Below are positions 5,984-8,438 of a stretch of DNA of 33,000 bases, in pieces. Source of the DNA: Kiritimatiellia bacterium (lineage in GTDB: Bacteria; Verrucomicrobiota; Kiritimatiellia; RFP12; UBA1067); contig JAFPUH010000002.1 in assembly GCA_017395505.1 (NCBI GenBank), forward strand, positions 1 through 33,000. Reading direction: 5' to 3'. Each line of letters starts with the position of its first letter. Position 1 is the stretch's first letter. A program made the translations under genes and the position numbers. The notes below the pieces were generated by a model. The model saw nothing but the letters and a program-made list of their open reading frames with translations, was not told the origin of the DNA and ran no database searches.

Positions 5984-6601
5984 TTATTTTCCGAGCTGTT
6001 TCAGCCAGTTGGCCACGGCGGACTTGACGGCGTCAGGTTCCTTTTGCGCAACGTGTCCGTAGAGGGCGAGTCCTTTCAGTTCCACCTTTGCCTTGGGATA
6101 GGCAGCCGCGAGCTTCTTTGCGGTCGAGCCAAGTCCCGAACCCTCGTGCGTGCAGAACGGGAGGATTGTCTTGCCGTCGATCTTCGCCTTGTCGAGGAAG
6201 GAATAGACGATCATCGGGGCGTCCGCCCACCAGTTCGGGTAGCCGAGGTAGATGGTGTCGATGTCCGAGAGGTCGGGGGCCTCGCCGACGAACTCCGGGC
6301 GCGCCTTCGCCTGCATTTCCTTCTTTGCGACTTCGATGCACGGCGTGTACTGGGTCGGGTAGGGATTCTTCTCCTTGATCTCCCATGTCGTCGTGCCCGT
6401 CTGGGCGGCGATCTCCTTGGCGACCTTCGCGGTGTTGCCCACCGTGATGTTGCCCACGGAGTAGTTCTCGCCCGTGTGCGAGAAGTAGACGACGATGCTC
6501 TTGTTCATTTTCTTTGCTCCTTCCTCGGCGAAGCCGATGTTGTCGAGCGCCGCTGCAGTTGCGACCGCGCCCATTATCTTGATGAATTCTTTCCTGTTCA
6601 T
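5984..6601 (-). CDS. Exported flavodoxin
   Basis: Flavodoxin-fold protein with an N-terminal export signal, 205 residues. MNRKEFIKIMGAVATAAAL resembles a Tat signal (R-K rather than R-R, then a hydrophobic stretch). After it, IVVYFSHTGENYS is a flavodoxin FMN loop and LGYPNWWADAPM is the loop that packs on the flavin. CTHEGSGLGST is also typical of the flavodoxin_4 type. I start at 6601 because AGGAAA lies about 8 nt upstream and the signal peptide begins there. Reading on upstream adds 27 residues encoded by the inverted repeat that bounds the neighbouring cassette, which is unlikely to be original. An extracytoplasmic flavodoxin is odd, because FMN must be bound before Tat export; the tat-like signal fits that. 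Confidence 0.88.
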   Translation of the reverse strand: MNRKEFIKIMGAVATAAALDNIGFAEEGAKKMNKSIVVYFSHTGENYSVGNITVGNTAKVAKEIAAQTGTTTWEIKEKNPYPTQYTPCIEVAKKEMQAKARPEFVGEAPDLSDIDTIYLGYPNWWADAPMIVYSFLDKAKIDGKTILPFCTHEGSGLGSTAKKLAAAYPKAKVELKGLALYGHVAQKEPDAVKSAVANWLKQLGK

Positions 6602-6625
6602 TTTCTGTTTTCCTTTTTCTTTTTT

Positions 6626-6652
6626 GCCACAAAGAACGCAAAGATCGCAAAG
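6626..6652. repeat. Left copy of 27-bp inverted repeat beside GxxExxY gene
   Basis: A 27-bp element beginning GCCACAAAGAACGCAAAG. The same element lies in inverted orientation at 7056-7082 with only the two central bases swapped (AT against TA). It is built of repeated AAAGnnCGCAAAG-like units. It ends 2 nt before the stop codon side of the GxxExxY gene. Confidence 0.9.
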
Positions 6653-6654
6653 GG

Positions 6655-7032
6655 TCAGAGTTGTTTCACCATTTTCTTGCATTGAAATGTCTCTGAACCG
6701 AAGTTTATGAGCAAACCATGTCCCAGTTTCATTGCTTTCATGTAATTCAGCAGCTGGGCAAGATGGGTCGGAAGAAGCGTTGAAACGGCCTTCAATTCAA
6801 CAATTATCCCTTCAACAACCATATCGGCGATATATTCACCGATGACATAACCATCTTCGTCTGCAACCTGTATTGGGACTTGCGATTGCACCGACATGCC
6901 GACCTTTACCAGACGATGGACCAATCCATTTTCATAGACCTTTTCGAGATAGCCAACCCCAAGATAAACATGCAAGTCGTAGGCCGCCTGTCTGATCTTG
7001 TCACAAATCGCATTTGCTTCTTGCTCCGTCAT
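6655..7032 (-). CDS. GxxExxY family protein
   Basis: Small protein of 125 residues with the motif GYLEKVYE (about residues 27-34), which is the family signature G-x-x-E-x-x-Y. Further landmarks are EYIADMVVEGIIVELKAV, which resembles the D-x(n)-E-x-K core of PD-(D/E)XK nuclease-like folds, and QLLNYMKAMKLGHGLLINFG. The function of the family is unknown; the E-x-K core makes a nucleic-acid role possible. AAGGGAAAG lies 8 nt before ATG at 7032. The coding region fits between two inverted repeats with almost no spare bases. Transcription from the tetR promoter would run through it into the flavodoxin gene, so it is now part of the operon without a visible link to redox chemistry. Confidence 0.9.
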   Translation of the reverse strand: MTEQEANAICDKIRQAAYDLHVYLGVGYLEKVYENGLVHRLVKVGMSVQSQVPIQVADEDGYVIGEYIADMVVEGIIVELKAVSTLLPTHLAQLLNYMKAMKLGHGLLINFGSETFQCKKMVKQL

Positions 7033-7055
7033 CTTCTGCTTTCCCTTTCTCGCAT

Positions 7056-7082
7056 CTTTGCGTACTTTGCGTTCTTTGTGGC
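7056..7082. repeat. Right copy of 27-bp inverted repeat beside GxxExxY gene
   Basis: Inverted copy of the element at 6626-6652, differing at two central bases. It lies 23 nt upstream of the GxxExxY start codon and ends 5 nt from the 3' end of tetR (7088), so the cassette boundary nearly abuts the regulator gene. Confidence 0.9.
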
Positions 7083-7087
7083 CAAAA

Positions 7088-7690
7088 TCATTTCACACGA
7101 TACGGCGCCAGCAGGTTTGGCAGCTGCACCTTTGCGAAGCGGCCCACCCATTCATCGGGGACGAATTTCTCGTCGCTCATGCACCAGCTCGTCATCATGC
7201 CGTAGAGCTCGCACATGAAGATGTGCGCCAGCGTCTTGACGGGAGTGCTCTTCTTGAGAAGTCCGCCTTTCACGGCGTCTTCGAGGAAGGCCGTCATGTG
7301 TCCGAGGTCGTAGTTGTACTTCCCTCCGCACATCTCGCCCGGCGAGTCGTTGGGATTGATCACCTCGCGCACCCACTGGCGGCAGAGTTCCGCGCCGCCG
7401 CACGTCACGCCCTCCATGAAGCCCTTGAAATAGAACGCGAGCTTTTCCACAATCGTCCCCTTGTGCTCTCGTGCCTTGCGGTCCACGTCGCTGAACCACT
7501 CCTTGCAGCACTCGAAGACGATATCCTCCTTGCGCTTGAAATAGACGTAGAACGTTCCCTTCGACACGCCACAGGCGCGCGTGATGTCCTCGACGGACAC
7601 GTTGGCGAATCCCTTTTCCTCGATGAGGGAACAGGCCGTCTCGTATATCTTCTGCCGCGTCTCCAGCGCGTTCTTCTGCCGCTTTGTCAC
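7088..7690 (-). CDS. TetR/AcrR family transcriptional regulator
   Basis: One-component repressor of 200 residues. The N-terminal helix-turn-helix (about residues 10-56) contains the TetR pattern: ETRQKIYETA, then VSVEDITRACGVSKGTFYVYFKRKEDI. The remaining residues form the helical ligand-binding domain, which does not reveal the ligand. The start is GTG at 7690, with TAGGAG 7 nt upstream. A near-palindrome covering the -35 box lies 50-75 nt upstream, so the protein most likely represses its own promoter and the whole redox operon downstream. By analogy with similar gene sets, an electrophile, aldehyde or quinone could be the inducer; that is an inference. Confidence 0.93.
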   Translation of the reverse strand: MTKRQKNALETRQKIYETACSLIEEKGFANVSVEDITRACGVSKGTFYVYFKRKEDIVFECCKEWFSDVDRKAREHKGTIVEKLAFYFKGFMEGVTCGGAELCRQWVREVINPNDSPGEMCGGKYNYDLGHMTAFLEDAVKGGLLKKSTPVKTLAHIFMCELYGMMTSWCMSDEKFVPDEWVGRFAKVQLPNLLAPYRVK

Positions 7691-7814: not shown

Positions 7815-8108
7815 TCAATCCCTGAGCCTGTAGCCGGCGCCGCGGATCGTCTCGATGCGTGCGCCGGACGAGCCCAGCTTGCGCCTGATCTGCAGGATGT
7901 GTTGGTCGAGCGTACGGCTTGCGGCAAAGTAGTCCTCCCCCCCCCCCCCTACGGCGTCCAAAAGCGCATCGCGGGAGAGGGCTTGCCCCGGGTGCGCGGC
8001 GAAGGCCTTGAGAAGCCCAAGCTCTCTTACGGTCAGGGTCTGCTCAGGCTCCCCGGGGGCGCGTATGAGAAAACGACTCGCGTCTATGAGCGCGTCGCCA
8101 AGCTGAAG
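7815..8108 (-). pseudogene. Response regulator fragment, OmpR/PhoB DNA-binding domain only
   Basis: About 97 codons encode a winged-helix effector domain: LTVRELGLLKAFAAHPG, LSRDALLDAV, SRTLDQHILQIRRKLG and the final wing RIETIRGAGYRL. This is the C-terminal half of an OmpR/PhoB-type response regulator. The receiver domain with its phospho-acceptor Asp is absent, and no start with a ribosome site precedes the fragment. Beyond roughly 8060-8110 the sequence becomes the carB tail on the opposite strand. A run of 13 G (minus strand) encodes GGGG where the family usually has W-G, adding two residues. It is a remnant, not a working regulator. Confidence 0.75.
7937..7949. repeat. 13-nt poly-C/poly-G homopolymer
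   Basis: Thirteen consecutive C on the plus strand within the response-regulator fragment. Such tracts slip during replication and can switch reading frames, but they are also a common place for sequencing errors. Confidence 0.95.
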
Positions 8109-8438
8109 TCGCTCGGCTTCGGCATCTACGCGACGCTCGGCACGTCGTCCTACCTCTGGAACCACGGCATCGAGTCGCGCGCGGCGTTTCGCATCTCCCG
8201 CGGACGCCCCAACGCAATCGACCTTATGCGCAAAGGCGAGATAAACTGGGTCGTGAACACTTCCGAGTCGGACGGCGAGGCGTCCGGCGACTCGGTGAAG
8301 ATGCGCTCAGCCGCCGTCGCCGCCGGAATTCCCGTAACCACGACGCTTGCCGGTTTCGCCGCCGCAGTCGCCGGCCTCTCCCAGCCCCACGACGAATGTT
8401 CCGTCTACAGCCTTCAGGAGTATCAGCACAAAGCATAA
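8079..8438 (+). pseudogene. carB: Tail of carbamoyl-phosphate synthase large subunit (MGS domain)
   Basis: About 119 codons match the C-terminal methylglyoxal-synthase-like allosteric domain of CarB: LGFGIYATLGTSSYLWNHGI, then RPNAIDLMRKGEINWVVNT, TTLAGFAAAVAGL and a final SLQEYQ like the usual CarB end. The full protein has about 1070 residues, so nearly 90% is missing, including both ATP-grasp domains. No start codon with a ribosome site precedes it. It is the only clear conserved sequence on the plus strand here and abuts the response-regulator fragment back to back. It is a relic or an assembly join; a working carB must lie elsewhere if the organism makes pyrimidines. Confidence 0.75.

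Follow-up and report, generated by a model that had tools for sequence, protein, structure and literature searches.

A GxxExxY nuclease gene between inverted 9-bp-periodic arrays as a likely gene-bearing copy of a mobile short-repeat family

The repeat-bounded gene behind tetR

The window, by which we mean the whole 33,000-nucleotide stretch of DNA that was analyzed, contains a minus-strand series of genes in which a tetR-family regulator gene (7088..7690, minus strand; PF00440), with orthologues in other genomes of the genus, is separated from a flavodoxin (Flavodoxin_4) gene (5984..6601, minus strand; PF12682) by a compact unit at 6621-7087. These are the host genes upstream and downstream of the insertion; orthologues of the flavodoxin gene are 86-92% identical in G002, G004 and G027, and an aldo-keto reductase gene lies beyond it. 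The unit opens with an upstream, or left, arm (7056..7087, minus strand; TTTTGGCCACAAAGAACGCAAAGTACGCAAAG), whose T-rich outer end abuts the tetR stop codon and is followed by the units CACAAAGAA, CGCAAAGTA and CGCAAAG. A spacer (7033..7055, minus strand), in which a ribosome-binding-site-like AAAGGG can be read directly, leads to a GxxExxY gene (6655..7032, minus strand) encoding a PD-(D/E)XK nuclease of 125 aa, and the downstream, or right, arm (6621..6652, plus strand) is an inverted copy of the left arm with its outer end at 6621.

A sequence-only reading of this region had claimed two inverted 27-bp copies matching at 25 of 27 bases, placed 2 nt after the stop and 23 nt before the start of a small gene, and this held exactly: the core arms at 6626-6652 (GCCACAAAGAACGCAAAGATCGCAAAG) and 7056-7082 (reverse complement GCCACAAAGAACGCAAAGTACGCAAAG) match at 25 of 27 positions, the right arm begins 2 nt past the GxxExxY stop, and the left arm ends 23 nt ahead of its start. 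A repeat search of the window extended the arms to 32 nt (6621-6652 and 7056-7087, 91% complementary), and a scan of all 33 kb found no second 27-mer inverted pair with at least 25 matches within 1.5 kb. The repeat is, however, not just one 27-mer but a 9-bp-periodic array, each arm reading inward as a T-rich stretch and then GCCACAAAGAA CGCAAAGNN CGCAAAG, or approximately three direct 9-bp units. The three units in each arm lay beyond the view of that reading, as did the family-wide layout and the difference in repeat type between protein variants. That reading also had the unit separate a TetR repressor from the genes that it should control, but the flavodoxin gene of the window is not the one that usually follows this tetR; in relatives that place is taken by a paralogue only about 32-37% identical. 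The search for further copies that it had proposed recovered, in the window's own genome, one more close match to the repeat element (pattern search; C28:606-632) and one more GxxExxY gene (C18:94815-95159), the latter without the window's repeat.

Contig C49 of G027 (loci L149 and L170) carries tetR and the window-type flavodoxin gene about 3 kb apart, with the flavodoxin paralogue between them. The intervening genes are missing in the window, so it is possible that a deletion accompanied the unit. On the other side of tetR, a long C run (G on the coding strand) at 7937-7949, inside a response-regulator ORF (7815-8165), is possibly a phase-variable tract or a weak spot of the assembly.

The GxxExxY nuclease family and its flanking arrays

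GxxExxY proteins form a widespread family that owes its name to a motif alone. In profile searches the window protein scored 114.1 bits against TIGR04256 (cut-off 35) and 106.6 bits against PF13366, PDDEXK_3 (cut-off 22). Across 28 sequences from many phyla, G27, E30, Y33, D70, E79, Q93 and Y97 are invariant and K81 is nearly so; the resulting order of E30, D70, E79-x-K81 and Q93xxxY97 (E, D, ExK, QxxxY) is that of Cas4/RecB-type nucleases. A search of PDB sequences gave no useful relative, and structure comparison was used instead. The AlphaFold2 model of the 6655-7032 product has a pLDDT of 96, and its closest structure is the Cas4 protein SSO0001 (4ic1; Foldseek 6e-5, VIA Z 10.0), followed by restriction-endonuclease-fold proteins such as AddAB, MGME1 and lambda exonuclease at Z values of 6-8, which are not decisive by themselves. 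By sequence and model, the active site is intact and of the Cas4/RecB type. The protein has no added DNA-binding domain. The nuclease is under purifying selection (dN 0.02, dS 0.17, dN/dS ~0.12).

Loci with GxxExxY were taken from 58 relatives and, across many phyla, from 76 named genome contigs; a strong inverted repeat was defined by a local alignment score of at least 16 within 220-bp flanks. The layout is general for the family: strong inverted repeats flank 57% of 101 GxxExxY genes, whereas the figure is 2.0% for 250 other ORFs in the same loci and 3.4% when flank pairs are swapped. A looser cut (300-bp flanks, score of at least 13) returned 22 of 36 PVC, 23 of 31 other-phylum and 51 of 68 own-order GxxExxY genes. 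About 30-40% of the genes have no clear inverted pair at the cut-off used, possibly through decay, contig ends or a different layout. The 9-bp period of the arms is reflected in an autocorrelation of 0.43 against 0.28 for shuffled sequence.

The neighbors of the gene-plus-repeat unit are unrelated from place to place in many bacterial phyla, and 57 of 78 units start between -60 and +45 bp from the end of a co-directional ORF of at least 120 codons, compared with 17% of random positions. The repeat-flanked unit is also carried by cultured bacteria, on plasmid or chromid records of Bacteroides, Sphingomonas and Bernardetia, such as those annotated for Sphingomonas parapaucimobilis, with the arrangement fabD-[unit]-fabG, and Bacteroides finegoldii, with radA-[unit]. 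Viral contigs and phage records yielded no relative and hence no phage carrier. The distribution of GxxExxY is patchy, with the gene present in 37 of 61 genus genomes, and truncated copies are frequent. The notion that the repeat is confined to the tetR operon is rejected, since flanking repeats are general for GxxExxY and arrays are dispersed in the genomes of the genus.

Long GC-rich inverted repeats (CACCGGTCGC..., GTCGTCGCCTCCCGC...) lie on both sides of the GxxExxY genes at L190, L205, L178 and L209 and do not fit the 9-bp unit pattern. These pairs, which slightly inflate the own-order count, are possibly another repeat class or nested elements.

The sequence of the unit repeat varies by lineage (CAAAGAACG, CACAGAGGA, CACGGAATA, ACAGGATTA, CGTGTAGAA, ACATAAGA and more), and it follows the protein variant, across phyla too, in tests that were uncorrected for ancestry. 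Similar GxxExxY proteins have similar repeats (Mantel r 0.28 over 96 loci), both inside the window's genus (r 0.35) and in the rest of the order (r 0.25), each value lying above all 999 permutations; neither the Mantel nor the rank tests take account of shared ancestry. Among cross-phylum pairs, a repeat is shared by 36% at a protein identity of at least 0.55 vs 0.3% at an identity below 0.35, and the ACAGGATT class is common to Bacteroidota, Chloroflexota, Neomarinimicrobiota and the window's own genus. Strict matching of one array type to one cognate gene was only partly supported when tested: the CAAAG type was significant (p 0.01) and the other types were underpowered. G064 and G078, which are incomplete MAGs, contain many arrays and no detected cognate gene.

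Alleles at orthologous sites and dispersed copies

The sequence-only reading had proposed a comparison of the operon in relatives, holding that the cassette idea would fail if they always kept the gene at this place without repeats. This is not what the relatives show: behind tetR there are three different cassettes, gene-less pairs, a collapsed palindrome, or no repeat. The three repeat/protein pairs found at the tetR site in the genus are types A, B and C. Among 12 other tetR loci, three carry a B-type unit, whose GxxExxY protein is 41% identical to that of the window and in one case truncated, and three carry a C-type unit with a protein 26-28% identical. At two loci there is a gene-less C-type facing pair, a doublet in which the CDS has been deleted between ATG and AAATAAC, with the ribosome-binding site and start codon retained. 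One locus has a collapsed CTCACGCCTCTGCGTGAG palindrome, one keeps a left C arm alone, with different sequence beyond it, and two lack a repeat of the 9-bp-array kind. The tetR genes behind which the cassettes differ are 82-87% identical, in contrast to the 26-41% identity of the cassette proteins to that of the window, and C-full, C-doublet and B-collapsed alleles all fall within one tetR clade of about 1% divergence. One B allele keeps what appears to be a leftover right end of a C array. Ordinary homologous recombination among strains possibly accounts for some of the exchange at this site.

In B and C alleles (L161-L171), the C terminus of TetR reads into the left arm (e.g. ...PYVADTASRKVREVR*). 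Insertion therefore rewrites the last residues of the regulator.

Presence and absence of the repeat-bounded unit at orthologous sites, with empty, solo, doublet and full alleles, is not restricted to tetR. The thiF-thiG site occurs in the genus in the empty state, with a truncated solo array, with a solo array, with a solo array of the other orientation and type, and with a full unit. G032 lacks the unit found behind L047, and identity across the joined flanks of its matching site is 86%. No target-site duplication was recognized at the L047/L229 or thiG sites, where the flanks are only 70-86% identical; no transposition intermediate was seen, nor a gain event in any near-identical genome pair. 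At L291, L292, L295, L297 and L299, where thiF is not the upstream neighbor, TPP-riboswitch-like sequences lie ahead of thiG. Solo arrays at L278:1500 and L285:1509 are apparently in frame inside a CDS, encoding a FLAAKNA-like peptide before VIFCCFSERD, and recall in-gene palindromic elements.

Gene-less arrays and doublets are dispersed through the genomes of the genus. Three array types gave 1380, 994 and 1171 pattern hits in 61 genomes, the third counted with one mismatch allowed, and reversed-pattern controls gave near-zero or low counts; the highest count for one type in one genome was 192. Several types coexist in one genome. For 98 CAAAG-type arrays, neighbors within 150 bp were facing in 15 cases, diverging in three and in the same orientation in none, and in G058 the only GxxExxY gene is enclosed by ACAGGATT arrays and has a doublet to each side. 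Doublets form a long hairpin (z -8.8 and -6.1), and a single arm is unfolded as single-stranded DNA (0 kcal/mol). Genomes with more GxxExxY copies have a higher array density (rho 0.70, 35 genomes, uncorrected for shared ancestry). Where no GxxExxY gene was detected, the median array numbers per genome are 2.5, 0 and 3 for the three tested types, and G007, G016 and G081 are among the genomes of this kind in which arrays occur.

The mobile-repeat interpretation and its rivals

We consider it likely, taking the explanation as a whole, that 6621-7087 is a gene-bearing copy of a mobile short-repeat family driven by a nuclease. That the unit is a mobile, repeat-bounded cassette is very likely. That GxxExxY itself drives the movement is an inference, which we favor by a narrow margin only. 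The sequence-only reading had proposed a minimal cassette moved by its own E-x-K-bearing protein or by another enzyme; the cassette is supported by the site comparisons and the identity of the mover is undecided.

In the model that we prefer, a pair of facing arrays, each with about three direct units of 9 bp, forms the ends of the unit, and the cargo is one minimal Cas4/RecB-type nuclease gene. Facing arrays, when single-stranded, can fold as one long hairpin. The nuclease would recognize its own array type and would cut or trim the DNA at such arrays. Host recombination or replication would then copy the unit to new sites, in most cases right after the stop codon of a co-directional gene, the position of least harm. 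Loss of the gene would leave a doublet and further loss a solo array, and both would spread or decay as non-autonomous copies. Recognition or binding of the arrays, cutting or trimming of DNA and the copying route are all inferred. The main weak points of the model are the lack of a recognized target duplication and the incomplete cognate matching.

The rival that survives best, which we nevertheless regard as unlikely, is a homing-like process in which the nuclease breaks a gene-less array and repair copies the gene in; the arrays would arise otherwise and there would be no transposition into naive DNA. It is favored by the different cassettes that share the tetR site, where gene-less doublets also occur, by the thiG-site alleles with solo arrays, and by the B allele with the seeming remnant of a C array. 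Against it, the C doublets, retaining a ribosome-binding site and start codon, look like cassette deletions rather than an ancestral state, and units are found at sites without any array in relatives (L047 vs G032). It is very unlikely that GxxExxY is a mere passenger and that another enzyme, such as an IS or RAYT-type transposase or a host recombinase, mobilizes the repeats. Arrays in genomes without a detected GxxExxY gene and the coexistence of array types would be consistent with a passenger role, but there is no other gene inside the units, the repeat type tracks the GxxExxY variant across phyla, and arrays of the tested types are few where GxxExxY is absent. Also very unlikely is a regulatory or defensive role, in which a host nuclease (autoregulated, for repair or anti-phage) binds the arrays and is kept for host benefit under ordinary horizontal transfer: purifying selection, conserved catalytic residues and placement inside operons, with likely read-through expression, are compatible with it, but selfish DNA is a better fit to the patchy distribution, the frequent truncated copies, the unrelated neighbors, the scattered solos and doublets without a gene, and the swapping of variants at one site.

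Through its link to a repeat family, GxxExxY gains a role, a large group of short dispersed repeats from environmental and gut genomes gains an explanation, and naturally matched nuclease/repeat pairs come to light. Should the nuclease be the mover, a Cas4-like enzyme would suffice to power a mobile element; this is relevant to the recruitment of nucleases such as Cas4 and makes a compact set of sequence-specific nucleases available for study. The association of GxxExxY with repeats is not described in the open-access literature that we searched, where mentions of GxxExxY are not about repeats; this is not proof of novelty. A bolder reading, which taken jointly we think falls a little short of an even chance, is that the units form a separate class of autonomous minimal mobile DNA across many phyla, with no enzyme but a 125-aa Cas4/RecB-type nuclease that recognizes 9-bp-periodic terminal arrays; array type and protein variant would coevolve as a specificity code, and gene-less doublets and solos would account for a large body of common but unexplained short dispersed repeats of the CAAAG, CACAGAGG, ACAGGATT and GTGTAGA kinds.

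Among known systems, a likely counterpart is that of REP/REPIN and RAYT (REPtron, PMC3116915), which the unit would parallel on the basis of a PD-(D/E)XK nuclease. Both have a dispersed short-repeat family, inverted doublets with predicted hairpins, one associated gene that lies between repeats of its class, and several repeat classes, each close to a gene variant of its own. RAYT, however, is an HuH tyrosine (Y1) transposase, and REPs are singly palindromic, GTAG/CGTC-tagged stem-loops (PMC3733652), whereas the only gene of the unit matches PDDEXK_3/GxxExxY alone and its single arm is unfolded with a direct 9-bp period instead of being an imperfect palindrome. With an unrelated enzyme and a non-palindromic single repeat, the unit is not a REPIN/RAYT member.

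With one small gene inside terminal inverted repeats, and with gene-deleted derivatives that keep both ends, the unit recalls MITEs with their parent insertion sequences and the TIRYTs, TIR-flanked tyrosine transposase genes (PMC3733652). The unit differs in that GxxExxY is its sole CDS, without a DDE, HuH, serine or tyrosine recombinase, its ends are 9-bp-periodic arrays, and no target duplication was recognized at the sites compared, with their diverged flanks. An insertion sequence is ruled out by gene content. Like freestanding homing endonuclease genes, the unit has a nuclease gene as sole cargo, a patchy distribution and a spread beside unrelated genes, but it is bounded by its own inverted arrays, has dispersed doublets and solos, and shows no recognized shared cleavage site.

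Cas4 and RecB/AddB-type nucleases (4ic1 SSO0001, AddAB, MGME1, lambda exonuclease) supply the best structural matches and the E-D-ExK-QxxxY order, but GxxExxY is only 125 aa long and has no CRISPR or helicase context. The 28-sequence alignment contains no conserved cysteine, and thus none for a Cas4 Fe-S cluster; membership of Cas4 is ruled out by the absent cysteines and by the context, the neighbors being tetR and flavodoxin. Weaker structural matches were obtained to the Wolbachia cytoplasmic incompatibility factor 7esz (Z 8.3) and to the fdxN-element excision controlling factor 2okf (Z 6.1, 26% identity).
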